From contig OZ020526.1 in NCBI GenBank assembly GCA_963971425.1, positions 17,451,173 to 17,515,172 of the forward strand: 64,000 bases of DNA, written 5' to 3'. The notes under the pieces are model-generated. The model was given only the letters and a program-made list of their open reading frames with translations, was not told the DNA's origin and did no database searches. Source of the DNA: Bryoerythrophyllum caledonicum (lineage: Eukaryota; Streptophyta; Bryopsida; Pottiales; Pottiaceae). This document shows, one piece after another, positions 4,617-60,892 of the stretch (its first letter is position 1; every line of letters starts with the position of its first letter). Made by a program: the position numbers and the translations under genes.

Positions 4617-5333
4617 TTAACCCTTTACCGCCGAGTTATGTTTCTAAAATAACCAAGATTTCTGCAAAAAAAAAAGTTTGAACCAGATTTGATGGAAATG
4701 CAATGCCTGTTATTAATATCTAACCTTACAAAATTGAATTTAACCCATAACATAAACTTTGGGGAAATTTTACACAACATCCAACTGTTGATGGAATAGA
4801 TTATAGTGTTTAAAGTTACCGTATATTGGTAGTGAAAACTGTGGATTTTGGAGGGTGTACTACTTTAACCATCAATAGATTCTTGCAAGAATTTGTTTAC
4901 TTCGAATAAGAGCAGTGTACATGTGCACTAGGTTGATAGCTTCGCATTGACATATCACATGTGAAGAACATATTTCTACACAATTATTGGTGATTTTTTT
5001 GCTTTTTTCTACTTGATTGTATACAAAAATGTTCCAACCTTATACGAATTATAGCGGAAGTTTTGTATGTGAGGAGAGAGATTGACAATCACAAAACAAT
5101 GAAGAATGTCACAAAGTATGTGGCGTAGTACTCTCTATATTTTAGTGTATTTGATGTATTTTGTGTTGTATTCCTAGCTTTTCCAAGAGTTCTATAAATC
5201 CAAATCATGAACTGATTGTTGGAGAGTGAGTGCGCAAGTGTGAACCTTGTATCTCAAAGCCTAATTCCTCATGGATTTCATGCAAATTGAGTTTTAGCAC
5301 CTCCGGAGTCCCATTTCGGGCTTCCTGGGTTAA
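4617..5333. mobile_element. TTAA-flanked non-autonomous element, copy 1
   Basis: Flanked by TTAA at 4617-4620 and 5330-5333. The left end begins CCCTTTACCGCCGAG and the right end finishes in GGG, but the right inverted repeat is damaged. The interior aligns along its length with 33176-33968, for example the shared tracts ACATCCAACxGTTGATGGAA and TTGTGTTGTATTCCTAGCTT. About 709 bp, no coding capacity. TTAA targets with CCC..GGG ends are the hallmark of the piggyBac superfamily; assignment to it is inference because no transposase is present. Confidence 0.7.
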
Positions 5334-5485
5334 GGGTCAAACTCAAGAGGCATTGAGACAACATTGCTTCAATAATATTTTGTAAACCACTAAACATGTA
5401 CATTTTATTGAATGTAGACACGTATGCGCTCGCTCGTATGGGTTTTATATTGAAACCATATCGTTTTTGTATTGCTTCATGATTG

Positions 5486-5828
5486 AGGTAAGCCCCCCCA
5501 AAACCAACAAAAACCCATAGCCAACGCCTATAAAATTGGGGTATTTCCAACCCTCTTCCATCTCAACTGAGCTCCAAATGGAGGTTTGCTATTAGTCAAG
5601 ACCCTTACTTTTGGTCGTTGGTTATGGGGGGTACCTATTGCTGGCCACCCACTAAACATAACTTCACAGTTGGAAAATTCATAACTAATTCAGTTTTCAT
5701 CGAAAAAATATGTAATCACTTGGGTTGGAGTTGTAATCTTATTGGCTATCACTGTAAAACAATAGTATAATTATCTCCTCTCTCCATATACACACATTCC
5801 TTAACTTGTCGGTTTTGAACGCTTACCT
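5486..5828 (-). mobile_element. TA-type MITE, copy A, upstream of the 6255 gene
   Basis: Starts AGGTAAGCCCCCC and ends GCGCTTACCT-like (AACGCTTACCT), with TG/TA at the borders where the related copy has TA on both sides. The interior is the reverse complement of 27994-28346 nearly throughout, including TTAGTCAAGACC and CACTTGGGTTGGA. 343 bp and non-coding. It ends 427 bp before the ATG of the next gene, so it lies in or near its promoter. Confidence 0.75.
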
Positions 5829-5830
5829 TA

Positions 5831-6254
5831 TAGCTTTGCCTTCGATGTAACTGCTTCGAAAAAGACTGGCAACAATTGAGCGCGGGATTTGGGCGTCAAA
5901 TCGCGTTCACCAGGGTCCGAATTCCCGTCAACAGCGTCTCGAAATCTTCACCACGGCTACCACCGAGGAATCTAGGAAAAGGGAAGATTACCGACCCCCG
6001 GGCATTGGCCGTGTTCACCAGACACGGTCTGCGAGGCCGCTCCTTGTCTTCTGCGACTGGAATCTGCAGCTTCGCACGCTCTCCCTCGCCATCGCCAGCT
6101 CGCGAGTCAAGTCCCCTCCTCTTCACCCCCGCTTCCGTCAACTCCCCTGCTGTCGGTTACGTTTCGGCACAGATCCCCAAGCCTGCAGCACAACTGTCAT
6201 GGAGAGCGCTCCTTTTAAGGCCGTGGGGAGGTTTTTTGACGTCTGGGAGTCAAC
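5831..6254 (+). promoter_or_regulatory. GC-rich leader/promoter region of the 6255 gene
   Basis: Composition switches sharply from AT-rich MITE to GC-rich sequence near 5880, typical of a plant 5' UTR or first exon. No TATA box is convincing. Open frames here on both strands have no recognisable content. The start ATG at 6255 is preceded by GTCAAC, a good context (A at -3 region, G at +4). Confidence 0.4.
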
Positions 6255-8156: not shown

Positions 8157-8617
8157 TTAGCCAACCCAAACTGTTCGGTCATAGCTATTTTTGGAGAGTA
8201 TTAGTAGAGGCCTCACTGCAGGGTCGTCCAGATCAACACCCCAATCCTTGTGTGTCCACATTCACTTTTCCCAATTTTGTTTCGGCCGGCTGAATTGAAC
8301 TGTGGCCGTGTGTAATTCAACCATTCTTTTGGCTAGCCATAGCCACCCTTACAGGGATAATCACAAAGATATGCAAATGAAGGTAGTCGGGTCTTCTTAG
8401 GAGACCCCTCGTTGTAGTCCTCTAGGGACAATTCTTTGCATTCTCTTTGTATCATATCTAATTTTTTCTTCCTAAGCAAAGCTACCGTTCCATTTTCTCA
8501 CACCTCGTCTGTCCTAAATTTGTTAACATCTTCCAACTCAGAATATTCTTAAAAGTTAGGATGGAATATTCCAACTTTTGGATAGAAATCTACAAGATTT
8601 TGTTGATTGCAAATTTA

Positions 8618-9184
8618 GAAGAAGAAGAAGAAGAAGAAGAAGAAGAAGAAGAAGAAGAAGAAGAAGAAGAAGAAGAAGAAGAAGAAGAAGAAGAAGAAGA
8701 AGAAGAAGAAGAAGAAGAAGAAGAAGAAGAAGAAGAAGAAGAAGAAGAAGAAGAAGAAGAAGAAGAAGAAGAAGAAGAAGAAGAAGAAGAAGAAGAAGAA
8801 GAAGAAGAAGAAGAAGAAGAAGAAGAAGAAGAAGAAGAAGAAGAAGAAGAAGAAGAAGAAGAAGAAGAAGAAGAAGAAGAAGAAGAAGAAGAAGAAGAAG
8901 AAGAAGAAGAAGAAGAAGAAGAAGAAGAAGAAGAAGAAGAAGAAGAAGAAGAAGAAGAAGAAGAAGAAGAAGAAGAAGAAGAAGAAGAAGAAGAAGAAGA
9001 AGAAGAAGAAGAAGAAGAAGAAGAAGAAGAAGAAGAAGAAGAAGAAGAAGAAGAAGAAGAAGAAGAAGAAGAAGAAGAAGAAGAAGAAGAAGAAGAAGAA
9101 GAAGAAGAAGAAGAAGAAGAAGAAGAAGAAGAAGAAGAAGAAGAAGAAGAAGAAGAAGAAGAAGAAGAAGAAGAAGAAGAAGAA
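8618..9184 (+). repeat. Perfect (GAA)189 trinucleotide tract
   Basis: 567 bp of GAA without a single interruption, ending at AATGGG. The purine strand is the + strand, i.e. the sense strand of the gene ending at 8156. A small satellite of the motif lies at 9531-9541. Long GAA/TTC tracts can form triplex DNA and attract silencing (Friedreich ataxia FXN; IIL1 of Arabidopsis accession Bur-0). Poly-Glu and poly-Arg frames here are artefacts of the repeat. Confidence 0.98.
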
Positions 9185-9665: not shown

Positions 9666-10603
9666 CCCCTAAATGAAAAACTTCATGAAGTGGGCTTTTG
9701 CAAATCATGGGCATGCTCCCATGACTGCAATTTGTATTTGCAATTCTTGAAATTTTGTACAAAGATGCAATAGACAAGAGCTACTCCAAAATATAATTTT
9801 TTAATTTGCATTGGACCTATGGAAAAAAGGTTACGCCATCTTAAACAAAAACTTCTTGAGTACAGGCACATCGGGCAACTCCAAAACTTTTACTAGGACA
9901 CTCTTTCAAATGTGAGATTTTCAGTACTTCCAAGTAATATTATTTCCTTTCCACCTGTCAAAAAAATTCTTGTCTTTAGTGAAAAATAACATTTTAACTC
10001 AAGTCAAACACTTTCACACATTGTCACACATTCTCGGGCAAGGTACCAAAAAAACTTCTTCTTTTCCACATAAAACTTAGAGATCTTCATATTCATAGTT
10101 TTTAATTTTTCTACTATAAGGTGTGGTGTAAACCTTCTTGTTAACTATTTGGATTTTTATTCTAAAACATATCAAGTTCACAAAAGAAAAAAAAACGTAA
10201 TTGGCGGGTTTTTGAACCTCCACTCTTTGCACAATCTTTTTGAATATGCTACATCCCTTCTCTACCTCTAAAAATTGGTGCACAAGGAATTAATATGATC
10301 ATGCTTGACATGATGGTAACAAATTTAGACCTAATGTAGTGCAAAAAATGAACACCCAATGAAGTCAAAGTCTTCTGATTTACTCAACATTGGGAAGAAA
10401 ATGAAGCATTTGCTTGACTTCAAACAGTGTAATCTTTCTATCCCTGCGGTCAAATTTTATGAGTATGTTACTTAGTAAGTCTTAACCGAGATCCTACGGT
10501 TAAAAGTATAAAATGAAAGTCTTATTTTCCTTCCTTACCGATTGCACTAGAATCGACAGTCTTGAAGTGTTTCTCATGTGAAAGTGTCAAATTAATTTAG
10601 GGG
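9666..10603 (-). mobile_element. TTAA-type element of ~940 bp, copy 2
   Basis: Left flank ATAA (one base off TTAA) then CCCCTAAATG; right end TTTAGGGG followed by TTAA at 10604-10607. The interior is the reverse complement of 28970-29913, with matching tracts such as GTxAAAGTTTTTGGAGTTGCC and ACACCAATTTTTAGAGG. 938 bp against 944 bp for that copy. Non-coding, with degenerate ends. Ends 504 bp upstream of the nodulin-related gene. Confidence 0.7.
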
Positions 10604-10607
10604 TTAA

Positions 10608-13447: not shown

Positions 13448-14909
13448 AGAGTGCCTTCTTTCCCGCTAATTTGTGTCATTATCTGAGATTCATTCTCGAG
13501 ATAACTGCAGTCTATTATTTCGTCTGTATTCTTCATGATGTTTATTAAATGACTGTATTTGCATTAATTGGATTTTATCCACATGGTCGTTGTTCATGTT
13601 TTTGTAAATTTATAAGTGGATGACAGAACTAGAGCTCTCTATGGTGATCGAACGCTGGGAAATCATGTTTCTCTGGGACTTCTATTCATATCACATTCTG
13701 CAAAAGGAGGATTTTGTCTGGAAATAATACACATAGAAAATTACTATCTTAATTATGTAATAGTGGGTGTCAAAATAAGTCGGTGGCTTGGTGATGGAAT
13801 TTTGTGAACGTTAGAAAAGTGGAAAAGAGACCCTTACAAAGTAGGAAATGGGACCTCAACCTCATTCACACGTCATCTTTATGCTCATGAACTAGGGTAA
13901 TTACCACTACCGGTACTACGTTTTCTAGTCTTTCTGGACTTTCTATGACATTTTGGGGAATAATATTTTGAACATGAAACTTAGTGGAAAATTCAAACTG
14001 AACTTTAAAAAGTACCTCATATATGTGACTCATAGGGAAGATACCTTGGTTGCAGGGGGCTATTATTCTACATGAGGGTCAGTTTCGTACATAATTAATT
14101 TACAATGGCAAATGTCCAAAATCTTAGGAAAATTCAAGAGATTTGTCTAGATATCCATGTAATGCCTAAGTGATACTCGTTGCGTCCGAATTACCTCAAA
14201 AGGGGGAATAATCCTAAACTGACACAACCAAACTATGGGGTCTCTGAACTAAAGATGGAAAAGGATCCTGACGAAATATGAACTCCATAGAATCTCTCCA
14301 AAAAACAATAGAAAAGAAGCTGTCATATCACATAAGGTCGAACAGCCTATTTCCGGCCCTTTAAGGAACTCAGCTACTTGCACTTTGAAGCAGGGTGTAA
14401 TTTTTTTTTTGAGAACATAGGAAATAGATGAGAAGTATAATGGAAATTTAAAATTTTATTTCCGATCAAGTATGTAATTACAGTGTAATTTCGAAGTTCT
14501 AAACACTAGACTCCTACAACTGGACGTAGCTTGCCTTGTAAGAGAAGCAAAAAAAGCCTAAAACCGGCCACTGCTCATTCTACTTGTCTCACTATACATC
14601 GTGCAAAATTAGAGCAATGATAACTTAGTACTGCCTTGACAGTGTTACAAAGGCGTTCCTATACCCATGTCAGTCCAAAATTGGCCAAGCTTATCCTCGT
14701 GGGATGAGCACATACACATGACCTCTGACTAGTCTAATTCCGTCCTGAAAAAGAAAAAAAAAGTGATGTCATATTGCAGTGGCTCCCTGAGCCAGGACTC
14801 CACCAACGACTCGTAGGTTGAACTCCACCAACCACCAACGGCTCTCAAACAACCTGGTCCACCATCACCCAGTCTTCATCGGCGCCATCACCAGCCTCGG
14901 CCTGAGGCT
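13448..14909. other. Intergenic, no gene seen
   Basis: 3' UTR of the nodulin-related gene followed by AT-rich sequence; GC rises after 14770 towards the transposase locus. Only short frames without recognisable content. The outer ends of the transposase element were sought here and not found. Confidence 0.5.
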
Positions 14910-17087
14910 CTACGAATGTCCATGCAGTGGACATCTGCCTCTCCAAAAGAGGCACGGTGTTGTTCCGGGTCTGTGACCTGTCGACGTCGACGTGGGCGGG
15001 TGGCCTTCATCACCTGAAGGCTGGAGCTCGTGTAAATACCGAGGATCGCCGCGGTGCACCCATGCAGGGGGAGTCGCCGGTGGAATTTCGGCAACGTTGC
15101 CGATGCCATATTTCACAGCCCTGCGCCTCGCCAACCTCCGCGCCATGTTCTCCTTGCAGATAGCGGGCAAGACACCACAGTATGGTGCGATGTATGCACC
15201 TAGGGCAGGAGGAGGCGCATTTTTTAGCAGCCATTGCAAGCGTTTTCCTGCCTCACGGATCGCATCCGCGCTCCACTGTCGCTTGAAGACCTCCCTGGCT
15301 CGTGCGTCGACTTCCCTTTGTGCCTTCTCGGCTTCTTTTCGCAACTTCTCAACTATCCGGGCCTCTTTTTTTCGCTCAGCCTCCACTTTTCGTTGCTCCG
15401 CTTCTCTTCTGGCCTTCTCCTTTCGCTCAGCTTTTTGCTCCAAGCTTTGCAAGTACTCTTCGCTAGTTTACATGATACTCTTGCTGTAATCTATAAGAGG
15501 CTCCTCTCAGGTTCTCCTTTAACGCGGCTGCACAACCACCTCGGGGAGCTGGAGAAACTGCTGGATCGAGGGCGCTGCGGTTCCGAGACCCTCCCGGCTA
15601 GATCCAGGGCGATGATGTTGTCCCGCGCCCCCTCCGCTGCCGAGGTCCGACAACTCCTCGGTGCCCCCTCCGTTGCCAAGCTCCGACAACTCCGCAACAC
15701 CGCTATCGTTGCCAAACTCGGGCTCATACTCGCCCACCAAGAATTGTTGCCGATCTGGCTGAGACGAGGGTATGCGGTCACCCATGATTTCTTGCATTGC
15801 AGGGTCCTGTCCTTGGTCATCTTCGTCCATTTCGTCAAGATCCTCGTCGGTCTTTGAGTCCTCATGATTTTCTTGTCCGGCAGACGCTTGAACGAACTGC
15901 TCAGATGGCGCCATATACTTATCAACAGCTCGTGGGTTCAACGGCCATATTCCGGTACTTCTAAATCCTGCCCTTATATTGTTCTCTATCAAGGCCTTTT
16001 GTAATGCAGCTGATACCCACTGTGCTAGCACTGCCTTTGATGCGCCTCTCCTACAGTTTCTTAAAGTCCATGCATCCCTGTATCGTTTGAATGCTCTTTT
16101 GAATGGTCCGAAAATGCTCACATCCAATGGTTGCAGACGGTGGCTCGTGTGAGAAGGCAAGGTGACCAGATCCAAACCAACTTGCATGGCTTTGTGTACA
16201 ACCTCCAAAGTGACATGCGAGTTGTGGCCATCTACAATGAGTAAGTGTCGATTGGTAGGAGAGACTCCACCCCTGCTCTCAAGTGATTTAATGAAATGTG
16301 ATATCCAATGTGAAAATAAGATAGCAGTCATCCATCCTTCTGGCTGCATTGCCATGCTAGCTCCGTCCTCACAGCATGCTATATAGTTCTCTCTCATTCT
16401 TTTGCCCCTAAAAATGTAGAATCCTGGAATGCTCTGGCCACTTGCATTGATGCATGATAATACTGTGACCCATTCACGCTCATTAGGCATCAGAGAGTGC
16501 ACAGTTTTAGATCCTCTCCTGCACCATACCAAAGCACCCCCATTTTGGCCACCTTGTGCCCCACTCTCATCACAGTTCCATATGTTTGTAGGTGGATAGT
16601 TGTATGTGCGATAGAGCTCCTCCAAGTTCCTGTGGAAAGATGCAACATTGTCAGGGCATAGTCCCTTTGCTCTTGAAAACTCTAGTCCCTGGGAGCTTCT
16701 TAATGTCAAATCAGGGTGTCTTTTTTTGAACCAGCGTACCCAACTGTCCCCTGGGATGCCTTCTCTGAATGGTGTAATCCTCTCCTGAGTAATAGTGGCT
16801 ACTTTCAAACGAAGTTGTTGCATGGATAGAGGGTGACCATAGTCCTGCATCCTGGTCATGTATGTATTTAGTGCACTCTCTTCTTCTTGCTTTAATACTG
16901 TAGGTGGGCCTCTTTTCCGAGTTTGAGTTCTACCAAACAAGTGATCTGATAAGGAGGTTGGAGGGATGTCGAAATACCTTGCAACCGTCTTGATTCTCCC
17001 TCCTGCTTCAATTGCCACGATTGCCAATCTGAGTGCTTCATCTGTCCAAGTGCCTGTTCTTCGTCTACCACCTCGTTGACTTCGCAT
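14910..17087 (-). CDS. pogo/Tigger-type (Tc1/mariner) DDE transposase
   Basis: The main exon (15519-17087, start ATG at 17087) encodes in order a Psq/HTH (TDEALRLAIVAIEAGG..VARYFDIPPTSLSDHL), a CENP-B-type HTH (YMTRMQDYGHPL..GDSWVRWFKKRHP), and a DDE domain. Acidic residues expected for catalysis are visible: NIWNCDESG, LLIVDGHNSH, and PLDVSIFGPFK, i.e. a DDD set as in pogo elements, followed by GIWPLNP. A second block (14910-15462), with an AG acceptor at 15463-15464, encodes a Glu/Lys/Arg-rich coiled coil (KAERKEKARREAEQRKVEAE shortened here) and a basic tail. It is probably a further exon of the same gene, since the first frame ends at 15519 and such tails are common in the family; the donor is not resolved. 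No stop breaks the DDE domain, so it may be functional or recently lost. Confidence 0.8.
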
Positions 17088-17135
17088 TCGCCCTATGTAC
17101 ACCGCAGGTCCATCTCCGAACTGCCCAGCAGGTTG

Positions 17136-17687
17136 CTAGAGCGAAGCTTTATTCATATCGACGCACAGGGCGTCGACGGAGGTGGGAACATGGCGGCCGG
17201 GCTGCAAATCATCGCCGAGGACCGCGCCGACTTCATGAGTGGGAGCGCCGGCGGAGCTTGGCGCTGGAACTTTGCCCATGGGAGGAGGTCCGCCCCTGGG
17301 TTGCATCAGTGGCGCCACAGGTGATGTCGCGATCCCGAGGCTCCTTCGCGGCGTTACTGTAGGTTGCGGAGGAATGCCGGAGTTCGGCGCGGCCACTGTG
17401 GCGTACACGCCGTGCACTCGCGGCGCTCCCGGAGGTGAGGTGAACACTGATGGGCACCGCGCTCCAGCTACGTCGGGGATTTGGTACGCCACCGCGGCTG
17501 CAGGGAGGTCGAAAGCCCCGTCGACAAAGGTCGCCGTCTGCCCATGTCGATATGCCTGTGTTGCACCGGGACGCCACCCTCCCATGATTGAAGTCGATCC
17601 GCTCACATGCACTCCAGTACCAGTCATGGCTGCTCCCATTGTGCTTAATTCCGCCACAAAACACGAATTCTCATGAAAATTTGCCAT
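17136..17687 (-). CDS. Open frame next to the transposase, unrecognised
   Basis: 183 codons, Ala/Gly/Pro-rich, from ATG at 17687 to TAG at 17136-17138, ending about 48 bp before the transposase start and on the same strand. GC content matches the transposase. I do not recognise it. It could be an upstream exon of the transposase gene (GGGCAG at about 17115 is a possible acceptor), a second transposon protein, or chance reading of GC-rich DNA. Confidence 0.35.
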   Translation of the reverse strand: MANFHENSCFVAELSTMGAAMTGTGVHVSGSTSIMGGWRPGATQAYRHGQTATFVDGAFDLPAAAVAYQIPDVAGARCPSVFTSPPGAPRVHGVYATVAAPNSGIPPQPTVTPRRSLGIATSPVAPLMQPRGGPPPMGKVPAPSSAGAPTHEVGAVLGDDLQPGRHVPTSVDALCVDMNKASL

Positions 17688-17932
17688 GACAATTCACAGT
17701 AGTTAACCGATTCAGTAGCTACGACCTCACTTACTCTATGTTCACTCCACAAGAATAAACCGTGTATTTCTCTCGTCACTCATGCACATCAAAGTCACAC
17801 CTTATTGCTCACTATATTCTCACCTTCATGCACTCAACTTCGCACTAACAGCTTGAATCATGCAACTGACAACATTGTACATAACTCCGAAGCTTTGCAT
17901 GACTTATACATGCAGTGTTGCAGGTGTCCACC

Positions 17933-18055
17933 CTCGAAAGGAGGAAGTAGTTCCATACTACTAACCCATGCCCGGTGGGCATGGACTTAGTGGTGGAATG
18001 AACGGACACTTTACTCACGACAGCCCCCTCCAGGGATCGGCGTTCTTCTTCTTCT
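17933..18055. mobile_element. Short relative of the TGTC-ended foldback element, with direct-repeat flanks
   Basis: The sequence after GCAGTGTTGCA (17922-17932) begins GTGTCCACCCTCGAAAGGAGG, like the end of the TA-type element at 54263, contains the perfect palindrome CCATGCCCGGTGGGCATGG, and ends before a second GCAGTGTTGCA (18056-18066). The 11-bp direct repeat may be a target-site duplication. Truncated and non-coding. Confidence 0.5.
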
Positions 18056-18324
18056 GCAGTGTTGCAACCAACATTAACCATAAGACGGCTTCATTAAACC
18101 GAGCCTCCATTGTCCATAATCTATGTACTATTAACCCATAATTGTTTGTTTTAATGCTTAATCCCACCTATATTAGCAACCCTTTGCCACCTTGATACTG
18201 TTCAACTGCTTCATAATTTTGATAGGCTGCGCCCACAATTCCATCCCTAAAGTAACCTAAAACCGTCCATTGTATTCATTCATCCACGCCAGTCACCACT
18301 AAATCCGGCCCCCTCATCTCTCGG

Positions 18325-19962
18325 ATGGTTATGGGCAGTAAAGTCATGAATTTACAAATATTTTTAGGTCTCGGCAATGGGATGGGGCTCGGGAATAGGC
18401 TGTTCGACCTTAGAACTTTGAAGATTTGGAAGGCTCCAAGAGGCAACAAACCGAGAATTTTCTCCAAGAAATTTTACCAAATGTTTGGGAAGGCTATGGT
18501 GTACTACACTGCGTTTAAAAGAGGCCACTTGCCTAGTTCTACAGTCCCCTTCAATAAGGTTACGTACTTTTTGCATTCCTAGGGATAGTAACTTTCAGTG
18601 CCGCCAACTTTGACACCCTCTTGAGATCTAGAAAATTGTTATTTTACCATGAAATTTTTGGCACAAGATCATTTCTATGTTGACAACATGTGTGCCAAAT
18701 TTCAAGGTCAGAAGATGAACATAGAAAAAGATATTCCAAATTTACCAACATGTGTAGTTGTAAGCCATTCACTACTGCCAATTTTGACACCCTCGTGAGG
18801 GCTGAAAATTTGATATTTTACCATGAAATTTTTATCACAAGATCATCTCTATGCTGATAACATGTGTGTTAAATTTCAAAGCCATGTGATGAATACAATA
18901 ATAGATACACAAGATTGTTTCTCATAGTTTCACATGTTGGTAAATTTTAAATATGGGTTTTTTTATTCATCTTCTGGCCTTGAAATTTGGCACACCTGTT
19001 ATAAACATAGAGGTGATCATGTGTTAAAAATTTCGTTGTAAAATAACAATCTTTCAAACCTAGGGAAGGTGCCAAAGTTGAAATGGTACCCGGGTGTTTC
19101 TCACAATTAGCACGTTGGTAGATTTTGATTTTTTTCTTTTCTATCGTGGATATTTTAGACTTGAAATTAAGCACACATATAATCAACGTAGAGATAGTCT
19201 CATGTCCAAAATCTCATGGGAAAAAATATAAAATTCAATCCATGGGAGGGTGTCAAATTTGGCAAGAGTGAAATGTTTCTCACAACTACACATGTTGGTA
19301 GATTTCAAAAATCTTTTGCTATGTAGGTATTCTCGCCTTAAAACTTTGTACACATGTATTCAATACAGACATGGTTTCATGCCAAAAATTTCATGTGCAA
19401 AAACAAAAGATTTAATCCTTGGGAGTGTGTCAAAGTTGGCGAGGAATGAAATGTTTCTTACAACTACACTCACAACTACACATGTTGCTAGATTTTAAAT
19501 ATGTTTCTTAGTGTGGATGTTTTGGACTTTAAACATGTAATAAACACAGAGAAGGTCCCATGCCAAAAATTACATGGGCAAAAAAAAAAATTCAATGTTG
19601 GTAGATCTTGAATATCTTTTTTTTATTTGACTTCCGACCTTGAAATTTTGCACACATGTTGTCAACATAGAAATGATCTTGTGTCAAAAATTTCATGGTA
19701 AAATAACAATTTCTCACCCTCAAGAGGGTGTCAAAGTTGGTAGCACTGAAAGTTACTACCCCTAGGAATGCAAAAAGTACGTAACCTTATTGAAGGGGAC
19801 TGTACAGTTGGCACACAACCATATATGCGGACTCAGTTGACAAGAGATAAGCTACTGGCCAACGCGGAGTCTCTGAAGTCAGAGTCGACGTACTCCGAGC
19901 TTTCGTTGTGGAAGGCGGAGATGTCACCGATCAGCTCAAATGTCAGCAACACTGGGTCTTAG
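18325..19962 (+). pseudogene. ORF split by a foldback transposon
   Basis: An open frame enters from at least 18325 (perhaps an exon starting at 18368 after a TTTTTAG acceptor) and runs to the TA at 18540-18541, where the element at 18542-19802 begins. After the second TA (19803-19804) the same frame continues to TAG at 19960-19962 (RTQLTRDKLLANAESLKSES and ELSLWKAEMSPISSNVSN). The left side contains SKKFYQMFGKAMVYYTAFKRGHL. With one TA and the element removed the frame is unbroken. I do not recognise the protein family. With the insertion, translation stops after about 12 element-encoded codons, so this copy is likely inactive unless the insertion is absent in other individuals. Confidence 0.6.
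18542..19802. mobile_element. 1.26-kb foldback element with TA target and CAGTCCCC ends
   Basis: Both ends read TA/CAGTCCCCTTCAATAAGG going inwards, and the outer roughly 180 bp are near-identical inverted copies. The interior is an array of roughly 180-bp units sharing CCAACTTTGACACCCTC and ACCATGAAATTTTTGxCACAAGATCAT: two units in + orientation on the left, then about five in - orientation from 18940 to 19760. TA target plus CAGT-type ends fits the Tc1/mariner-pogo superfamily. No coding capacity, so it must be moved in trans; the pogo-type transposase locus 1.5 kb to the left is an obvious but unproven candidate. Confidence 0.85.
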
Positions 19963-27537: not shown

Positions 27538-27993
27538 CACACCTCACCTTGCTCCAATCCCTCGCATCCCAAGTCCCCCAAATCCAACCAAACTCACAGG
27601 AACCACTGACCTCGCCCGATCCTCGTCAAAGCACGAGCAGAAACCGAGATCGGCGAAGATGGAAGAAGAAAGTTAGGGAGACGAAAACCTCGAAGCAGCT
27701 CGGAGCCTACCACCACCAAGTTGACCAATTCCACCGACTGTTTATTTTAAGATTCCTTGCTGCCCACGCTCACGACGACTTCGTCCTCTCGGGTTCGACT
27801 TGATCCGTTTTGCATCTGGAAATTGTTCTTCAGTAAACAGTGAGCCACTCTGGAGTAGATTGTGCACAACTTCATCTACGAGACTAGTACATTTCATGTT
27901 TGTCCGGTCACATTTTGTATGTACTTTGTCCTTGATAACGAGCATTTCGTGGAGAGCGACAAGCTTCCGCTTCTAGGGTTTTATGCAGGGGTA
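27538..27993 (-). promoter_or_regulatory. Upstream region of the callose-synthase-domain gene
   Basis: GC-rich 5' leader immediately upstream of the ATG, then ordinary sequence to the MITE at 27994. No core promoter element is clear. Confidence 0.3.
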
Positions 27994-28346
27994 AGGTAAG
28001 CCCCCCTAAAACCGACAAGCTAAGGAATGTGCATATATATGAAGAGGAGATAATTATGCTACTATTTTTCAGCGATAGCCAATAGAATTACAATTCCAAC
28101 CCAAGTGATTTCATATTTTTTCAATGAAAACTGAATTAGTTGTGAATTTTCAAACTATGCAGCCATGTTTAGTGGGTGGCAAGCAGTAGGTACCCCCATA
28201 ACCAACAACCAAAAGCAAGGGTCTTGACTAATAGCAAACCTCCATTTGGAGCTCAGTTGGTGGTAATGGGCTGGGAGAGGGTTGGATATATCCCAATTTT
28301 ATAGACGTTGGCTACGGGTTTTTGTTGGTTATGAGGGGGCTTACCT
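27994..28346 (+). mobile_element. TA-type MITE, copy B
   Basis: Inside TA at 27992-27993 and 28347-28348, ends are AGGTAAGCCCCCCT and AGGGGGCTTACCT, imperfect inverted repeats. 353 bp, non-coding, full-length counterpart of 5486-5828. It starts 457 bp upstream of the callose-synthase-domain start codon, with the ACCGACAAG end facing the gene, as in copy A. Confidence 0.85.
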
Positions 28347-28511
28347 TAACATAATGAAAAGGGACGTCGTTCGGTTTGGAGAATCACTTCCAAATTCATC
28401 TCTTGAAGGGTATTGCTCCACCCAAGACTGTTGACGTCATCCTTGTTGTTTGTACCAAATCACCTATGTACGGCTCACACAAAGTAAACCCTCTCATGAC
28501 CAACAAGTTAA

Positions 28512-28725
28512 CCCCTAAAGTTCCTTGACAATTTCCCTCAAAAACTATAAGTGGTACTAACTTTCAAACCACAAATCCAAAAAATAAAATAAAAATATGT
28601 CCACGAAGCTCTTATCAAAGGCAATCTAGAATAAAAATTTCAGAGAAAATTGATTTTTTTCGAATTTTAGGAACCTGCCCAAAAATCAAGGAATCCCCCC
28701 AAAGGAGACTCTGGTCCTTTAGGGG
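28512..28725. mobile_element. 214-bp TTAA-flanked MITE
   Basis: Exact TTAA on both sides (28508-28511 and 28726-28729). Ends CCCCTAAAGTTCC and GGTCCTTTAGGGG form a 13-bp inverted repeat with one or two mismatches. Non-coding. Inserted in copy C of the TA-type MITE at a site that reads CTAA in copy B. Confidence 0.85.
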
Positions 28726-28969
28726 TTAAGCAATGTGCATATATAGAGAGAACATATAATTATAAACTTATTAATTATAAACTTATTAGAAATACAATTT
28801 CAACCCCAATGATTTCATATTTTTCCAATGAAATTTGAATTAGTTTTGAATTTTCAACGTGTGCTGCCATGTTTAGGCGATAGTTGCCAGTAGGTACCCC
28901 AAAAGCGTCAACCAAAAGTAAGCGGTCTTGACTAATAGCAAACCTCCATTTGAAAATGTATGGGTCTAA

Positions 28970-29913
28970 CCTCTAAAGGCCTAAGGCATTTTCACATCAA
29001 AAACACTTCAAAATTGCTTGTTCTAGTGCAATTAGTAAGGAGGGAATTTAAAACTTTATTTTCTACATCTAACCATTGGATCTCAATGAATACTTGATTA
29101 GTAATACATTCACAAAATTTCATAAACTTTGACCACACGGATTGAATGATTATAGTATTTGAATTAGAGAAAACAATTCATTTTCTTCCCTTCGTTGAGT
29201 GGATCAGCACACTTTGACTTCACTTGGCGTCAAGTTTTTCCACTACACAAGGTCTAAAAATATTACCATCATGTTAATCTTGATGTTATTACCTTGAACA
29301 CCAATTTTTAGAAGTCGAGAAGGGGTGTAGCAGATTCAAAACAGTTGTGCAAGGAATGGAAATTCAAAAACTACCAATTTACGTTTTAATCTTTTGTGGA
29401 CGAAATATTGTTGAGAATGAGAATCCAAATGGTCAATAAGAATTTTAACACCACATCTTGTAGTAGGAAAAATAAAGTTAAAAAAATATAAAGGTCTCTA
29501 ACTTTTATGCGGAAAAGAAGAAGTTTTTTTGGTGCCTTGCCCGACAAAGTGTGACAATGTATGACAATACTTGACTTGGGTTAATGTGCCATTTTTCACT
29601 AAAGACAAGAGATGTTCTTTGAAAATTTGAAAGAAAATAATATTACTTGCTAGTATCGAAAATATCACATTTGATACAGTGTTCTAGCAAAAGTTTTTGG
29701 AGTTGCCGGAAGGACCCGCTCTCTCCATTTGAAATTCAAAACCCTATAACTTTTGCATCAAATGTCGGATTTAGGAAAAAATTGTGCTCACACGAAGATT
29801 TTAGTAATTTCCGTCTACAATAGAAATTTCAATAACAAATGTTTTGATTTGACACCATAGGAACCTGCCTAGACCTTCAAGAGTCCCCCGAGGGAACTCT
29901 TGAGCCTTTAGGG
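28970..29913 (+). mobile_element. TTAA-type element of 944 bp, copy 3
   Basis: Left flank CTAA (one change from TTAA), start CCTCTAAAGGCC; right end GAGCCTTTAGGG then TTAA at 29914-29917. The interior matches 9666-10603 (inverted), 59596-60240 and 3340-3960. Non-coding. Interrupts copy C of the TA-type MITE. Confidence 0.8.
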
Positions 29914-29996
29914 TTAATGGGATGGAAGTGGGTTGGATATACCCCGATTTTATAGCTAACGGTCCCCGGATTTGGTTGATTATTATGGAGGTACCG

Positions 29997-31071: not shown

Positions 31072-31318
31072 AGGAAATATTTTGATAAGATTTTAGAACA
31101 AAATCATTTTCCATGCTTATGAAATACTAATTAATATGAGGCATTGTATTTGTTGATATCCATTTTAGTTTGGTGTATTAAATGGCAATATATTCCAAAG
31201 TATTTAAAGGGTTCCACAACTCAAAATTATACTCAAGATTTTAAAAGCATGCACAAATGTGTGTGCAAATTCAAAATTTGGAGTTCACAATCTAAATCCC
31301 TCACGCATATCATGCATA

Positions 31319-54262: not shown

Positions 54263-55499
54263 GTGTCTACCCTTGAGAGGCGGCAGTACCATACTACTAA
54301 TCTCTTGTCTTGTGGGCATCGCTAAACAAACTGACACTTTATTCATGCTAGCCTCCTTCAAAGACCGAAGTTCTTCTTCTTCTGTAAGACCCATTACTTT
54401 TGGTTGGCGCTCATGGGGGCACCATGAAAAAGAAGAACTTCGGTCTTCGGAAAGGCCGGAGTGAATAAAGTGTCTGTTCGTTCCACTACTAAATCCATGT
54501 CCACCGGACAATGATTAACCCCTAAAGATCCTTGAAAGCCAAAATGGCTTTTTGCTATTTCGGGCAGCCTAGTTCAAGGGGTTAAATTTAATATTTTTGC
54601 AAAATATTTTTACGGGGTGTTCCCTATACTACAAAGTGTATGTGCAACAATTTGCAAAGTCGAATTCCAATTTTTGAGCTTATTTACTCAAGTTTTAGTT
54701 TTCAACCTCTGGGCGGGCAGAAAAAAACTTTTTATTTTCAACATTTTTTTGAAATGTTTTTTTGCTAATATGTTCCTAACTAAGTTTCTATCCAAATTTC
54801 CAAGTGACCCATGTTGAACCTTTTACCAATTCTGCAAGGGCAGCCTTTAAAAATTACAACAACAAGTTTCAAAGTTTTCCACAATATTACATTTTTTTCT
54901 TTCAAAATTCGTCAAAATTTGAGATTTAATAATTTTTCAAAAATAAATTTTTCCAAAATTCACAAACTTAAAGAGGTACCTACTCACCGTTCATTTTTTT
55001 CCTAAATTAAATACAATAAACGTGATGCATGTTTTTCCAAATCACCGTTTTTATACCTTTTGTTGGAAAATAATTTGCATGAAGGTCTAAAAAGCCAAAT
55101 GAGTCTCTAAAATTTTGCATAGGCATTCAGAACATGATTCTCCACATGGAAAAAAATATGAGCAAAATGATTGGTGTAGCAATCATCGAGTTTTCCTTTG
55201 CACAAAGTAGACTATGTCTTTTAAACAATGCCCAAAAAAAGTTTTGCATCAACTTTGAACATTATAATCTCACAAATGGTGCACTTTTAGCGGCTCAAAT
55301 TTGACATGGTACACTCCATAGTAGCTAGGTTCAAGATCCTACGGTTGAAAGTACTAAAAAACAGTAAATACATTGACCATACCTCAATTCCAACAAGGTG
55401 GTAGAAATTCGCAATTTTTGGTTTTCGAGCTCCCAAGAACACAAGGATTTTTAGGGGTTAAATAGTATGGAACTACTCCCCCCTCTTGAGGGTTGACAC
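54263..55499. mobile_element. TA-flanked foldback MITE hosting a TTAA element
   Basis: TA at 54261-54262 and 55500-55501. Ends GTGTCTACCCTTGAGAGG and CCTCTTGAGGGTTGACAC are inverted repeats, and both continue with AGTA..CCATACTA. Left part also folds on itself (CCGAAGTTCTTC and GAAGAACTTCGG with ACACTTTATTCA and TGAATAAAGTGT). The element is interrupted at a TTAA by 54519-55457. Confidence 0.75.
54515..55461 (-). mobile_element. TTAA-flanked element of 939 bp, copy 7
   Basis: TTAA at 54515-54518 and 55458-55461. Ends CCCCTAAAGATCCTTG and CAAGGATTTTTAGGGG are inverted repeats with two mismatches. Size matches copies 2 and 3; some interior tracts (GATCCTACGGTTGAAAGTA) match copy 2 in the same orientation, others have diverged. 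Non-coding. Confidence 0.85.
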
Positions 55500-56986
55500 T
55501 ATGTAACCAATGATCAATAACTAGTAACCAATAGCCAGTGACCAGTAATCAATGATCAGTAACCATTATTCATGAGCATTTTAGGAGGTATCATGTAAGT
55601 CTGGAAGATGATGGTTGTTTTTGAGTTTACGTTTGTGTAGGAGTATGGACATTGCATGTTGGATAGCGATGGTATCAATTTTAGTGAAAGTTTTTTTAAT
55701 TGGATTAATGGGGATATTAAATGTTTATTCAAGACTTTTCATGGAGTAAATAAAGGTAGTAGCTCTAGCTTTAGCGGTAATAACAATAAGGGGGTCAACT
55801 TTCCATCTGAGAGCACGAATGTCATTAATAAGTGGTTGGTATTTAATAGTTTTGTTTTCGATTGCTTTTGGAGAGAATCTGTCATTACAGTATTTGAATT
55901 CAATGAATTGGATGGTGAGGTTTGTATTTATGTGGTCAGGTGGGGGGTCCTTATATGGTAGTCCTTTAATGCATAGTATATCTTGTTTGAGTCTGACTTT
56001 AGAACAACATCTTTGGTTTCCACATGTGCATGGAAGTAGCCATTGGGGGGCCATGTTTTCTTGTGGGTTGTTGTTGAAGGTATCCGCATTCAAAAGTATA
56101 AAGCATCGTGATTTGTTAAAGGATATGATTAGTATTTGAATTTCCCAGACTACTTTTGTGCCTTTTTACAATTAGGGAGTGTATGTGGTGGTTTTGGCAT
56201 TTGAGGAGTATGTGTAGCGATGTGTCTGGGTTCGTGGAGGTGCATATTTGGCATGTTATGGTTGGGAATCTTTCTATGCCAAAGAAGAGCTGCTTGGCGG
56301 GCATTTTCCATATGTTGTCCAATACGGAATTTGATGAGGCATGTTTTTTGTGAGTTTGTGATTGTAGAATTATTCCAAAAATTTGTAGATAGTTCGTTAT
56401 CAATGTTGTTGTTACCGGTCCATTTGTCTATGTTAGTTATGTTTTCCGAGATTTAGTCTAGGTTGTTGATTAGCTCTTGTTTTTGAGATATTTATCCAGA
56501 AATCTGATGGGGCCTTTGTCTGGGGTATCTTCCATAGAAGACCAACTTTCTCTTTGGAAGTAGTATGGAGTAGTGTGGGCCTGTCCGTGTGAGTGTTTGG
56601 CATGTTTATGGGGTTTATCTAATCCTTCCTTAGCTAGTTTATTCGCTTGTTCGTTTCCTTCTATATTGACATGTGCTCTACCTTTGTGGAGGGTTGTAAT
56701 TTTTGTGCAATTTTGTAGCATTTGGACCATATATGTTAGTATGGCTTGGTCAGGGTGATTATTGTGGTGGGTAGGGTGTGTTTTTTGTATGTTTAATAGA
56801 TATAGGACATTTAAGCAGCTTGTAAAGATGTGTGCTGGTTCATTAGCGTATTGTGTGGAGATCATTTTTAAGGCTTTGTGAAGGGCCATCATCTCTACTC
56901 TAAGGATATTTTGGGGTCCATGGAGTCTTTTGGATATTTTGATTTCTTTGGTAAAGTTATATATGCCATATCTTGCTTTTTCATTA

Positions 56987-57354
56987 CCGTAGGTGAAGGG
57001 CACCTTCGGCTATAATTAATTCAAAAAAGGCATGCCGAATTATTTGGGAAATTATTGAGTGAAAATGCTGAAATTGAAGAAAATATTAATATAGAAAATC
57101 TTTGGAAACCAAGGACATCAATGGGGAGTTATGGCTTGGAAAGCCTTGACTCTTGGAAGTGTGTGTAAAAGAACTCCAAGTAGGGAGCTTGAGGTCTTAG
57201 GTTCAATCCCCTTGGCCGTCAAAATATTCTAATTATAGTAATTTTGGAACTCATGCCGAAATCTGCTAAAATTTCTTTTAGAAAGCCGAACCCACTTTTT
57301 TGACTTTAATTAATTATTTGGCGTCCAAGTGCCGAAGGTGCCCTTGACCTACGG
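56987..57354. mobile_element. TA-flanked MITE inside the LINE RNase H region
   Basis: TA at 56985-56986 and 57355-57356. Inverted ends CCGTAGGTGAAGGGCACC and GGTGCCCTTGACCTACGG differ by one base and extend through TTCGGC. 368 bp, non-coding. Contains GGTTCAATCC (57200-57209), a perfect Pol III B-box match, and a weak A-box-like TGGCTTGGAAAG 68 bp before it. Removing it with one TA restores a continuous RNase H frame. Confidence 0.85.
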
Positions 57355-57423
57355 TATGCCAATGTCCGGGGCTAGCTTCTACAGGTTCCTTGAAGGAACC
57401 ATATGTGTAGTAACTCTATGCAC

Positions 57424-57609
57424 GTTCGAATTTCAGGGGAGCTGATATCATAATATGTGGGGAGAAGGGGTGGAGTAATGAGGTGGTTCGAATTTCAAGG
57501 GGGCTGATATCATGATATGTGGGGAGAAGGGGTGGAGTAATGAGGTGGTTCGAATTTCAGGGGGGCTGATATCATGATATGTGGGGAAAAGGGGTGGAGT
57601 AATGAGGTG
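57424..57609. repeat. Three tandem 62-bp repeats
   Basis: Units start at 57424, 57486 and 57548 with GTTCGAATTTCA and contain CTGATATCATGATATGTGG; they differ by only a few bases. Lies within the LINE remnant between linker and RNase H. Confidence 0.9.
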
Positions 57610-58169
57610 GGTTGGTGTTGTGTATACATACTTAAGTTAGGACCATTTTGTGTTGCGATTCACCGCGGTATGGGAAGGTGTGGGTGGGCTATTTTTATGT
57701 ATAATTGGTGTATGTTTAGTTTACTTGTTATATTAGTAAATGTAGCAAGGTTCTCTAAGCTGCCGACATTATTATCTTGGTGGTGTATGCATAGTATTTG
57801 TATGGTGGATGGCTCAAGTCTAGGTTTGCTTTTAAGTTCGGGTGGAATAGTTCGTTCTTCGTATTGCAAATCGAATCTGCTTCAAATAGCGCAATGATGT
57901 GGGAATCTGGGAATGGTCCTAAGTGGGGATTAAGGTTTTGATACCAGTTATTATCTGGAGTTCTAATAAGGGTGGATGTGTTTACTGGATCATTTTTGGC
58001 CGCTAGTCTTTGAGGGCACCAACTAAACATGGCAACACACTTTGAAAATTCACATTTCATTGGGAAAGTATGATATCATTTGGGTGAAAATCGTAACTCC
58101 ACTAGCTAGAAAAAAATTTCATTATTGTGTTTTCTCTCAAAATATGCACATTGCTGGGGGGTAACCTTT

Positions 58170-59270
58170 GGGCCGGTTTACACTTGGGGCCGGATTGAAG
58201 GCCGGCCTGAACTCTTCAAGTTTCATCCAATAGGATCTTTCAATCTCTCAAAATCCAACCCAAGAGCTTTATACTTGGGGCTGGCCAAAACCACATTTCA
58301 TCCTATGTGTCGCCTTAGGTGGCATGGTTTTGGCACCAAACCATCCGGCCCCAAGGGAGCAATTGGGACGAGGTTTGGGGTGGCCCAAACTCCCATCTAG
58401 GGCCGGATTCGATTCCTCCGTTGGATCCTTCAAGCTACCGTCAATTAATTACTTATATATATATATATATATAATTTATTTTTTTCATTGTGAAAAATAT
58501 TTTTTTATTTTGAAAAAAAAAAAAAAATTTTGAAAGAAAAAAATAATTTTTTGGGAAAAATAATTATTTTTTGGGAGAAATAATTATTTTTTGGGAAAAA
58601 TAATTATTTTTTGGGAAAAATAATTATTTTTTGGGAAAAATAATTATTTTTTCGATTTTTTTAAATCATTATTTTTTATTTTTTTTGAAAAAGTTAAAAT
58701 ACTTCTTCCTTTTGGATATGCACCCAAAAAAAGGGATTTGGCCGAATAAAGTAAATAAAACTCTTTTTTCCAATAGTCAAAATAGGAAGAGGAATTAGAA
58801 GTTGCATATATATGAAAAAAAAACTCTCTTTTATTTTAGACCTATCAAAAATAAGAGAAAAGGGAAAAAATTATGAAAATAAGAAAAATACTCTTATTTA
58901 TTTATTTATTTATTTTAGGAAAGAAAACATATAAAGTAAATATATGAAACCTATTTTTCTTTAAACTAGGAAAGAAACAAAGACAAAAGCTTGACACATG
59001 TGCTTCTATAATTTTTAGTTGAGCCTTATGAAAATCTAAGACACTTAAAAATTGGAAATTTAGCCCTAGAATTCGGCCCCAACACTTTACATTGACTAGG
59101 GCGAAGATGATGAATTTGAAATCCGGCCCTAGAATCCGGCCCTAGAATCCGGCCTCAATGCTTTACATTATTTGGGGCTGGATGGAAGAATTGGGGCCGG
59201 ATTGAAGGCCGGATTGAAGGCAAATCCTGCCGGCCTTCCATCCGACCCCATGCCTAATGTAAACCGGCCC
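58170..59270. mobile_element. Inverted-repeat element with GGGCCGGTTTAC ends
   Basis: Ends GGGCCGGTTTACACTTGG and TGTAAACCGGCCC; both sides continue with GGCCGGATTGAAGGCCGG-type blocks. Flanks TTT and TTA suggest a three-base TTW target. 1.1 kb, AT-rich core, no coding frame. Contains a TA run (58453-58475) and the minisatellite at 58541-58650. Confidence 0.65.
58541..58650. repeat. 20-bp AT-rich minisatellite
   Basis: About five to six copies of AATAATTATTTTTTGGGAAA, two with single-base differences. Confidence 0.85.
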
Positions 59271-59273
59271 TTA

Positions 59274-60892
59274 GAGCATCTCCACCCCTTGCGGGGAAAC
59301 GCCCACAGCAAAGGGTGGAGATGGCGATGGTTTGAGCAAACGGGAGGGGGGTTGCGGTCTCCCCCCGCACCCGTCAGCACCCCGCCCACAGCAAAAGGCA
59401 CCCCGCCTACAGCAGGCAGGCCCGACGCCGCTGGCCTGGCGCCGGGGCTTGTTTGTTTTTTAATTTTTTGTTTTTTGGTTTTTTTTAATTATTATTAAAA
59501 ATACCAATATTCGTAATGCATATTCGCTCGTTTTTTTTCCCTTTTTTATCTTTTTATTTTTGGTTTATAGTTTTCATACTTTTTTAATTATTTAACCCCT
59601 AAAGGACCACTACCACTTCCGCTCTAAAACCAGTTCAAAACTATGACTACCAAAAAAAGACATGAAAATCACATTTTAAAGTGAATTTCAGATTTTCAAC
59701 CGTAAGATTTTTGAATAGACTTCATTATGAACATGCCATACAATTTTGGTTGCAATCCACCGCACGGATTGCAACCATATTAGTGTTTCAAGTGAAAACA
59801 ATGGTTCGTTTTCTTCCGGGCGTTGAGTAGATCAGTGGACTTTGACTTCACTTTGAAACAATTTTTTGCATTGTACAAGGTCTAAATCTGTTTCCATTGT
59901 CTTAAGCATGATGTTATTTCCCACCACACCAATTTTTAGAGGAAAAAAAAATGTAGCATATTCAAAACAAGTGTGCAAGGTGTGGAGGTTCTTTAATTGC
60001 CATTTCAGGTTTTTTTATTATTTTTAACTACATATGTATTCAACTGATAATCCAAACGGTCAATAAGAAGGTTTTCACCTCATATTGTTGTTGAAAAAAT
60101 AAAAACTAAAAATTCTGAAGATATCTAGGTTTTATGTAGAAAAGATGAAGTTTTTTTCCCCCATTTCCCGACAATGTGTGAAAATGTTTGACTTGGAATA
60201 AAATGCCTTCTTACACTAAAGACAAGAATTTTTTAACCAAGTACGAAGGATATTTAATAATGGAACCAATATTGTAGTGATAAACAATAAGCTTTCCATT
60301 TGTAGTGGACGGAGAAGCAAAATGATGGGAAGGAGTTCTTTAATAGTGAAGGCGAGCAAAAATAAAAGAAAGGAAAAAAAAGAGAGAATAAGATGAGGCA
60401 ATAAAGTGCACTTAAGTGCACTTCCAACTATCAATACAAAATTTCAAAAAAATTCAAATTTTAAATTTAAAAAAAATAAAAAATAACAATAAAAACATAA
60501 GTGCACTGAAGTGAACTTCGAACTGTCAATATTAAAAAAAAAAAAAAAAAAAAAAAATAATTTTAAATTTTTAAAAAAAAAATTTAAAAAAATTCAAAAA
60601 ATTTAAAAAATTAAAAAATAACTGCTCTGGCCCTGGCTGCACGGCCCACTGGCCGTGAGGCAGCGTACAGCACTGGCCGGCTGTAAAGCCAGGCCGCTGA
60701 CCACTGGCCGGCCGCGTCTTCTTCCAAGACGGGGCCCCGGGGAACTTCGGCAGTTCCCCGTCGACGGGGCCCTGTCACGGGGAAACCCCGCCCTTGTTTC
60801 CCGTAGTGCTGCATGCGGTGGGGCGCGCATGCCACCCCGCCACAGTTTTTTTCCCCAATTTGCCGGGTTACTGTGGCGGGGTGGAGATGCTC
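59274..60892. mobile_element. Large Harbinger-like element, GAGCATCTCCACCCC ends
   Basis: TTA at 59271-59273 and 60893-60895. Ends GAGCATCTCCACCCC and GGGGTGGAGATGCTC are perfect 15-bp inverted repeats. Outer 200-300 bp are GC-rich; the core is AT-rich and contains TTAA copy 8. No transposase. 1.6 kb. Confidence 0.85.
59592..60240 (+). mobile_element. TTAA-type element, copy 8, right end lost
   Basis: TTAA at 59592-59595, start CCCCTAAAGGACCACT, interior aligned with 28970-29913 up to about TTACACTAAAGACAAG at 60225. No right TTAA end found. Lies inside the Harbinger-like element. Confidence 0.65.

Follow-up and report, generated by a model that had tools for sequence, protein, structure and literature searches.

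The 64,000-nucleotide stretch of the moss Bryoerythrophyllum caledonicum analyzed here (the window) carries short elements that are almost certainly non-autonomous, MITE-like members (0.2-0.95 kb) of several related piggyBac families, mobilized in trans by the DDE_Tnp_1_7 transposases of 4-7.5 kb relatives in the same genome. The insertions are bounded by TTAA and carry terminal inverted repeats (TIRs), transposase-bearing units have ends of the same type, and the catalytic residues of their transposases are conserved. A preliminary description had placed these elements in a plant genome, and protein similarity identifies the host as a moss. It had also counted at least nine of them; two further copies (A3 and B4) had been missed. 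The elements, together with a pogo/Tc5-like element that served as context and control, are as follows.

4621-5329, forward strand: A1, family A, 709 bp, TTAA on both sides (4617-4620 and 5330-5333), ends CCCTTTACCGCC and CCCAGGAAGCCC.
33176-33968, forward strand: A2, family A, 793 bp, perfect 16-bp TIR CCCTTTAGTGCCCAAG, TTAA on both sides.
30422-31320, forward strand: A3, family A, previously unreported, split by D1 at TTAA 30776-30779 and 31068-31071.
9666-10603, reverse strand: B1, family B, 938 bp, ATAA on the left and TTAA on the right, TIR 11/12.
28970-29913, forward strand: B2, family B, 944 bp, CTAA on the left and TTAA on the right, sitting in MITE family R.
59596-60240, forward strand: B3, family B, left TTAA CCCCTAAAGG end intact, right end truncated, with no TTAA.
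About 3358-3986 (matching stretch), forward strand: B4, family B, previously unreported, ends not preserved.
28512-28725, forward strand: C1, 214 bp, TTAA on both sides, TIR CCCCTAAAG 9/9.
30780-31067, forward strand: D1, 288 bp, TTAA on both sides, ends CCCTTTAGCGCC and TCCTAAACACC, lying inside A3.
31323-32067, forward strand: E1, 745 bp, TTAA on both sides, long imperfect TIR (39/60), lying inside A3.
54519-55457, forward strand: F1, 939 bp, TTAA on both sides, TIR CCCCTAAAGATCCTTG 15/16.
14333-18412, reverse strand: pogo/Tc5-like element, encoding a transposase itself (ORF 15519-17135), TIR (T)AAGGTCGAACAGCC.

The three recurring size classes proposed earlier do not correspond to families and in part reflect coincidence: the 709- and 793-bp copies form family A (A1 and A2 are 82% alike over the first 489 columns), and the 938- and 944-bp copies form family B, with the 745-bp E1 being a separate family, the 939-bp F1 unrelated to family B, and C1 and D1 unrelated to each other. 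No transposase remnant was seen within the window elements, in which the longest ORF has 93 amino acids. Ten of the 31 ORFs of at least 50 amino acids from eight elements (C1 omitted) were scanned against profiles and gave no piggyBac match, only three matches to unrelated families below curated cut-offs, and no codon-phase bias was found in the three element pairs compared.

Both borders of each of the nine originally reported elements were read, and exact TTAA was found at 15 of the 18, with one-base variants at two others (ATAA left of 9666 and CTAA left of 28970). The single failure is the right side of 59596-60240, which has neither TTAA nor a CCC-type end, and this copy is therefore taken to be right-truncated. 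Two pyrimidines open all 17 valid ends and CCC opens 14, in agreement with the CCC type assigned earlier. The window contains 15 TTAACCC[CT]T ends, whereas Markov samples average 1.2 (60 of first order) and 0.85 (60 of second order), with a maximum of 4; it contains 9 TTAACCC...GGGTTAA pairs at 150-1500 bp spacing, whereas the same samples average 0.37 and 0.13 (maximum 2). Moreover, 15 of 223 CCC[CT]T sites have TTAA directly 5' (expectation 0.48%, P = 6e-13). Both tests rule out a chance origin of these ends, and the nine TTAA-bordered elements are real. When the TIR was anchored at the borders it measured 9/9 in C1, 11/12 in B1, 15/16 in F1 and 16/16 in A2, and just 2-4 bp in A1, B2 and D1. 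Other palindromic 4-mers were considered as targets (13 TIR pairs for CATG and 19 for AATT, versus 8 for TTAA), and CATG and AATT were rejected: 11 of the 13 CATG and 11 of the 19 AATT pairs stem from a single inverted-repeat cluster at 18540-19804 and the remaining AATT pairs mostly from A/T-rich tracts, while four of the eight TTAA pairs are reported elements. Subterminal palindromes of the type bound by the piggyBac CRD gave a weak signal, the observed mean being reached by 1 of 300 shuffles and 25 of 300 interior controls. The TIR pattern had no match in genome_contigs and two in viral_contigs, which were taken as chance.

Paralogous empty sites with a single TTAA-like site are present in the window for four of the eight two-ended elements (B2, C1, D1 and F1). 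The joined flanks of B2 align across the junction to 28206-28304 (85/101), those of F1 to the reverse complement of 17924-18018 (79/96), and C1 has empty sites at 27993-28057 (51/66) and on the reverse complement of 5601-5900 (40/48, one exact TTAA). The sequence that hosts F1 is a relative of the window's pogo-like element. Insertions are also nested, as the homology of A3 stops at TTAA 31319-31322, the start of E1. Such sites leave room for Tc1/mariner- or pogo-type MITEs with ACCC...GGGT ends and a 2-bp TA duplication, since T-TA-A is indistinguishable from TTAA at an empty site; both left-flank variants (ATAA and CTAA) retain the TA, and the pogo/Tc5-like ORF at 15519-17135, a possible mobilizer, is intact. 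Against this, 15 of the 17 ends have T as their outermost base, matching ends are borne by units with PF13843 transposases, and the ends of the pogo-like element are unrelated, so that its transposase is not the source or mobilizer of the TTAA elements. We regard a TA-duplicating origin as highly improbable.

A profile search of the window's own 437-Mb genome gave 120 matches to PF13843 (DDE_Tnp_1_7), all outside the window and including whole and broken gene copies (best 6e-81); six of the eight best have no internal stop, and none of 14 control genomes contained a match. Nine transposase ORFs scanned against profiles matched PF13843 only, and no second Pfam domain (e.g. a zinc ribbon) was found in them at E <= 0.001. 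Sola3 elements also target TTAA; this candidate was rejected, as none of the nine is a Sola transposase. At the three positions of the catalytic triad, D is retained in 17/17, 17/17 and 16/17 moss ORFs. Purifying selection acts between moss transposase lineages, with dN/dS of 0.06-0.21 in five of the six pairs with computable dS, although dS of these five pairs is 1.0-1.8 and close to saturation; the sixth pair (L017/L020) has dN/dS of 0.73 on 1-2% divergence.

Among the 100 protein matches listed for the moss transposase there are no named plants, and the named ones are animals only, at 28-30% identity. Such matches, together with the known occurrence of piggyBac mainly in animals, fungi and protists (PMC12732532, in part), would be expected if the transposase genes were contamination (e.g. 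insect DNA) rather than moss genome. However, PF13843 matches sit on contigs of up to 65 Mb and on each of the 13 contigs that bear the 40 listed family-A copies, the identity to named animal proteins is low, and in a tree the moss transposases form a supported clade with unnamed environmental sequences (100/98) that leaves out four named animal rows, which reduces contamination to a negligible probability.

Twenty stretches of the genome holding a transposase were fetched (numbered L011 and so on), selected for the most part because they scored highly and had open frames. The preliminary description had proposed looking for a piggyBac transposase between matching ends, and the search succeeded: in 11 of the 20 the transposase ORF is enclosed by TTAA-flanked CC-type inverted ends, and no CC-type pair was found in the other nine, by a search run without a shuffle control (the top pair in L011 is non-CC and probably chance). 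Nine of these units measure 4.0-7.5 kb. The 97.1% match between L017 and L020 covers precisely the span from TTAA to TTAA, L013 and L014 are 99.2% alike, and L011, L014 and L015 have both ends in common, with flanks that differ outside TTAA (8987 being used as the right end of L014, not 8468 as first proposed). With these units and the 120 profile matches, the piggyBac assignment made earlier is essentially right. Kolobok-type elements likewise target and duplicate TTAA and are reported from one chlorophyte and from red algae; their termini are RR...YY according to the same excerpt (PMC9587614), and AG in Xenopus in a passage of PMC6004289, versus ends that all open with YY here, and the transposases between same-type ends are PF13843. 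We therefore consider a Kolobok origin extremely unlikely.

Families A, B, C and E of the window have sequence and borders in common with the transposase stretches. The borders of A1 recur at 8691 and 9484 of L020; C1 and the units in L011, L014 and L015 have the same left end, and the body and right border of C1 are repeated in L018, L029 and L030. E1 has its left border in common with the L012 and L023 unit, at that unit's left end, and its right border corresponds to L012 7262, the right end of this unit being uncertain because homology continues beyond the right TTAA. B2 matches L012 6331-7246 at 76.6%, and the right border of B1 recurs in L012, L019, L020, L023, L024 and L025, with no recurrence of its left border in the fetched stretches; D1 and F1 likewise have no end in common with these stretches. 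Overall, for 12 of the 17 window ends one or more matches stop at the TTAA border, with starts as far as 14 bases outside counted as stopping there. The right ends of A1 and F1 each have one border-crossing match; that of A1, to the right side of A2, extends about 17 bases beyond the right TTAA. The F1 match belongs to the F1 empty site.

The genome holds 3403 candidates for A2 by first look, of which 40 were scored (85-100%), 21 of them spanning exactly 1-793 (A2 itself included). For D1 there are 1194 candidates by first look, with about 40 scored, and 30 of the 42 matches listed (D1 included) begin within the first 4 bases. In 20 family-A copies drawn from the first 25 listed rows, 23 of 40 borders are exact TTAA, 12 differ from it by one base and 3 are displaced by one position, a sample that favors intact ends because four copies in which 4-15 terminal bases are missing were skipped; the bases outside these borders are not conserved. 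Families A and D1 are dispersed. The B units, and the adjoining A, could instead be deletion leftovers of larger piggyBac elements rather than separately mobile MITEs: in L011-L015 the transposase ORF is followed downstream by B-like sequence, which lacks the terminal ~30 bp of B in L011 and L013-L015, B adjoins A in L012, L020 and L023, and within the window some 650 bp separate B4 from A1. This is unlikely, given that A2, B2, C1, D1, E1 and F1 have TTAA (or CTAA) and a YY end on each side, that four elements have empty sites, and that dispersed family-A copies have exact ends in common with differing sequence outside.

In the preferred reading, of non-autonomous piggyBac families, the transposases of the 4-7.5 kb relatives would move these particular window elements in trans, presumably by piggyBac chemistry, in which a nick at the CCC end would be followed by a TTAA hairpin, seamless excision and reinsertion at TTAA. 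Trichoplusia ni piggyBac (PDB 6x67/6x68; E 3e-31 for 6x67) has the same target, CCC...GGG ends and a DDE_Tnp_1_7 domain whose D268, D346 and D447 align to D in the moss transposase. It differs in its length of about 2.5 kb (2472 bp in an excerpt of PMC10813416) versus 4.0-7.5 kb, and the moss frames, taken from stop to stop, extend to as many as 1059 aa, the domain being preceded by long stretches. The alignment to piggyBat of Myotis (PDB 9c0f) reaches the C-terminal Cys/His-rich stretch of the L017 transposase, although the similarity is remote (E 4e-28). The Acropora CMITEs, as far as excerpted (PMC2872659), are short TTAA MITEs with CCCTTTAAGCCCTA- or CCCCTCAGTG-type ends, assigned to piggyBac by target site duplication and a CC[C/T]T end, with family I having ends in common with a piggyBac element; they are ~100 bp long in a coral, versus 214-944 bp in a land plant here.

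That land plants seldom feature in descriptions of piggyBac, as remarked earlier, is a fair statement, though not absolute. In the portions available, a repeat table of the fern Ceratopteris gives 1230 PiggyBac copies (PMC6890710), a review names PiggyBac among angiosperm MITE superfamilies (PMC10004981), and a 2025 paper calls plant piggyBac 'occasional', with red algae as the example (PMC12732532). The first two thus claim the superfamily in land plants, as a table row or a class based on target site duplication and TIR, whereas transposase, ends and target site come together here. We found no title on a piggyBac transposase in moss in the open-access literature. One moss genome paper, as excerpted, matched solely through the word 'piggybacking' (PMC10619864).

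While the superfamily is already known, a rich land-plant lineage looks under-described, because no plant is named among the protein matches listed. We lean towards a moss-hosted plant piggyBac clade, kept under purifying selection and still or recently active, with 4-7.5 kb elements, N-terminally extended transposase frames and MITEs dispersed over large contigs, that has been missed by annotated plant proteomes. PiggyBac is a workhorse of scar-free genome engineering. One version used in plants is animal-derived, judging by the title of a reference in PMC12732532, and a native land-plant piggyBac could supply plant-adapted transposases. With its open transposase frames and its near-identical copies, such a lineage would extend the range of hosts known for piggyBac. 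Its MITEs are numerous, by the candidate counts for A2 and D1, and so provide plenty of insertions with which to study how moss genomes evolve.

Both borders of the nine intervals in which the preliminary description had placed TTAA-bordered piggyBac-like elements were read, and that claim held everywhere except at one end: TTAA is exact at 15 of 18 borders and varies by one base at two (ATAA left of 9666, CTAA left of 28970), whereas the border right of 60240 shows neither TTAA nor a CCC-type end, and the copy at 59596-60240 is therefore truncated. Two pyrimidines open all 17 valid ends and CCC opens 14 of them; such ends and pairs are far rarer in Markov samples of the window than observed, and TTAA before CCC[CT]T is about 14-fold over-represented in the window (15/223 sites, P = 6e-13). 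Coral piggyBac MITEs have ends similar to those of the moss elements (PMC2872659), while Kolobok has TTAA in common with them but carries ends of the RR...YY type (PMC9587614). As a single case, a short TTAA-flanked element at 4262-4387 has inverted ends, AGTCGGGCTGGCTATGG, that are Kolobok-like RR termini.

Elements of the window, with families A and B and the singletons assigned by BLAST within the window
4621-5329: family A (A1)
33176-33968: family A (A2)
30422-31320: family A (A3), split copy, missing from the preliminary description
9666-10603, reversed: family B (B1)
28970-29913: family B (B2)
59596-60240: family B
~3358-3986: family B, missing from the preliminary description
28512-28725: singleton C1
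30780-31067: singleton D1
31323-32067: singleton E1
54519-55457: singleton F1
27990-28350; 5483-5833; 28480-28969 + 29918-29957; 58017-58155: MITE family R, ends (T)AAGGTAAGCCCCC

The three recurring size classes described earlier correspond only partly to family sizes, since E1 (745 bp) lies outside family A and F1 (939 bp) outside family B; E1 and B2 have a right end in common. Some ends, such as the left end of F1 (bp 17-33), show hints of a CRD-type subterminal palindrome, at a level that is not significant against interior controls.

Pre-insertion sites were read from another copy of the repeat that hosts an element. MITE family R is the insertion site of both B2 (empty site 28206-28304, 85/101 across the junction) and C1, for which two empty sites were found, at 27993-28057 (51/66) and, in reverse orientation, at 5601-5900 (40/48, containing a single exact TTAA), and F1, inside a relative of the pogo-like element, has its empty site on the reverse of 17924-18018 (79/96). 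Empty sites hold a single tetranucleotide that is TTAA or differs from it by one base, versus two in filled sites. A3 is split by D1 at TTAA, where A2 has the one-base variant TTGA, and its homology stops at the TTAA that forms the left border of E1. This comparison found no convincing homology on the right side of E1, and no match spanning the junction for A1, A2 or B1.

The pogo/Tc5-like element itself (14333-18412) has TIRs of 23 nt (96%) together with an intact DDE_1/HTH_Tnp_Tc5 ORF of 538 aa, and the ends of MITE family R resemble its ends. Clustered inverted and direct repeats (~68-93% identity) occupy 18540-19804, and 8617-9184 is a microsatellite made up purely of AGA, with 189 units and 100% matches. 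The best named relatives of a kinase open frame are from Ceratodon purpureus (50%) and Physcomitrium patens (44-45%), with Sphagnum lower (31-36%); for SMC6, environmental sequences are closest (79%) and named land plants reach ~45%, in a comparison that, through its limits on length, left out many proteins of full length. These similarities point to a moss as the source of the window.

The search proposed earlier, for DDE_Tnp_1_7 between matching ends, was borne out when the window's assembly (437 Mb, 894 contigs) was searched with Pfam PF13843 (DDE_Tnp_1_7). Scoring 116 of 305 first-look candidates gave at least 120 matches above the cut-off, the best with E 6e-81, and six of the eight best are free of internal stops; no PF13843 match was found in 14 control genomes. 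Twenty stretches of 8-10 kb around matches were picked, mainly by score and open frames, with one near the window. Nineteen of these contain an ORF of 300 aa or more, and in 11, a count made without a shuffle control, a TTAA-flanked CC-type TIR pair encloses the ORF. Nine measured transposase units span 4.0-7.5 kb.

Transposase units with the same end sequence on both sides (coordinates within the fetched stretch)
L017, 1391-6323: CCCTTAAACGCCCAGG at both ends
L028, 565-8121: CCCCTAAAAGCCCAAG at both ends

Stretches L017 and L020 are 97.1% identical over exactly the unit span (L017 1391-6323). At L020 2776-8690, a 4.9-kb transposase unit is nested in a family-B-like copy, and a family-A copy comes directly after. 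When the flanks of the unit are joined, they match B2 of the window at 173/241, with TCAA in B2 for the TTAA of L020. The units of L011, L014 and L015 share a left end, TTAA|CCCCTAAAGTTCCTTGAC, and a right end, TTTTAGGGG|TTAA, beyond which their sequences differ. Sequence of 55828-59273, a stretch that takes in a LINE-type RNase H (56470-57009), also occurs in L017 outside the piggyBac unit (66-88%).

Nine of the ORFs cover nearly the entire PF13843 model, and the nearest solved proteins are Trichoplusia ni piggyBac (6x67, E 3e-31) and piggyBat (9c0f, E 4e-28). The piggyBac catalytic triad, D268, D346 and D447 (PMC7351741), aligns to aspartates, present at the three sites in 17, 17 and 16 of 17 moss ORFs; the sole exception is a gap in L012, where the frame ends early. 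Among 11 ORF pairs compared, dN/dS was 0.06-0.21 in five, whose dS is high (1.0-1.8); one pair of almost identical ORFs gave 0.73, and the other five, with saturated dS, gave no computable value. The only named organisms among the 100 protein matches listed, of 2355 candidates, are animals. A tree was built from 46 selected sequences, 17 of them moss ORFs and 29 taken from those 100 matches; in it, all 17 moss transposases fall in one clade (100/98) with 13 environmental sequences, the four named animal entries lying outside.

Sequence of families A, B, C and E was found in the transposase stretches. Counting a match as stopping at a border when it begins no more than 14 bases outside the TTAA, 12 of 17 window ends have at least one such match, either within the fetched stretches or at another place in the window; none was found there for B1 left, both D1 ends or both F1 ends. 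The left end of C1 is that of the L011/L014/L015 units, and the left end of E1 that of the L012/L023 units. Genome-wide, A2 gave at least 40 scored matches from 3403 first-look candidates, 21 of the 40 running exactly end to end (own copy included), and D1 at least 42, of which 30 begin within its first 4 bases. In 20 A2-matching copies with flanks, chosen for nearly complete ends, TTAA is exact at 23 of 40 borders, one base off at 12, shifted by one base at three and neither at two, and the sequence outside is not conserved. Family-B-like sequence lies 3' of the transposase ORF in L011-L015, inside several large units; in L011 and L013-L015 the terminal ~30 bp of B are missing from it. This arrangement may reveal how the B MITEs originated or came to be captured.

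Target site, ends and enzyme are all present in the moss genome. In the nicking step of piggyBac, the 3' end at the CCC terminus is released by the transposase. According to the solved mechanism, attack by the 3'-OH across the TTAA tetranucleotide then yields a hairpin, and the released element is joined to a melted TTAA target, donor sites being left seamless (PMC7351741). By analogy, we infer that in the moss elements the 3' end would be freed at the CCC terminus, a TTAA hairpin would form and joining would be to a melted TTAA target, with the window elements mobilised in trans by transposases coded elsewhere in the same genome.

PiggyBac has a row in a fern repeat table (PMC6890710), is listed as one of the MITE superfamilies of angiosperms (PMC10004981) and is counted among plant superfamilies in a review (PMC10794571), and one account calls its occurrences in plants occasional, e.g. 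in red algae (PMC12732532). Literature searches confined to open-access papers brought up no title dealing with a piggyBac transposase from a moss. That these elements are real, and represent a new host lineage of the known superfamily piggyBac, is well supported.
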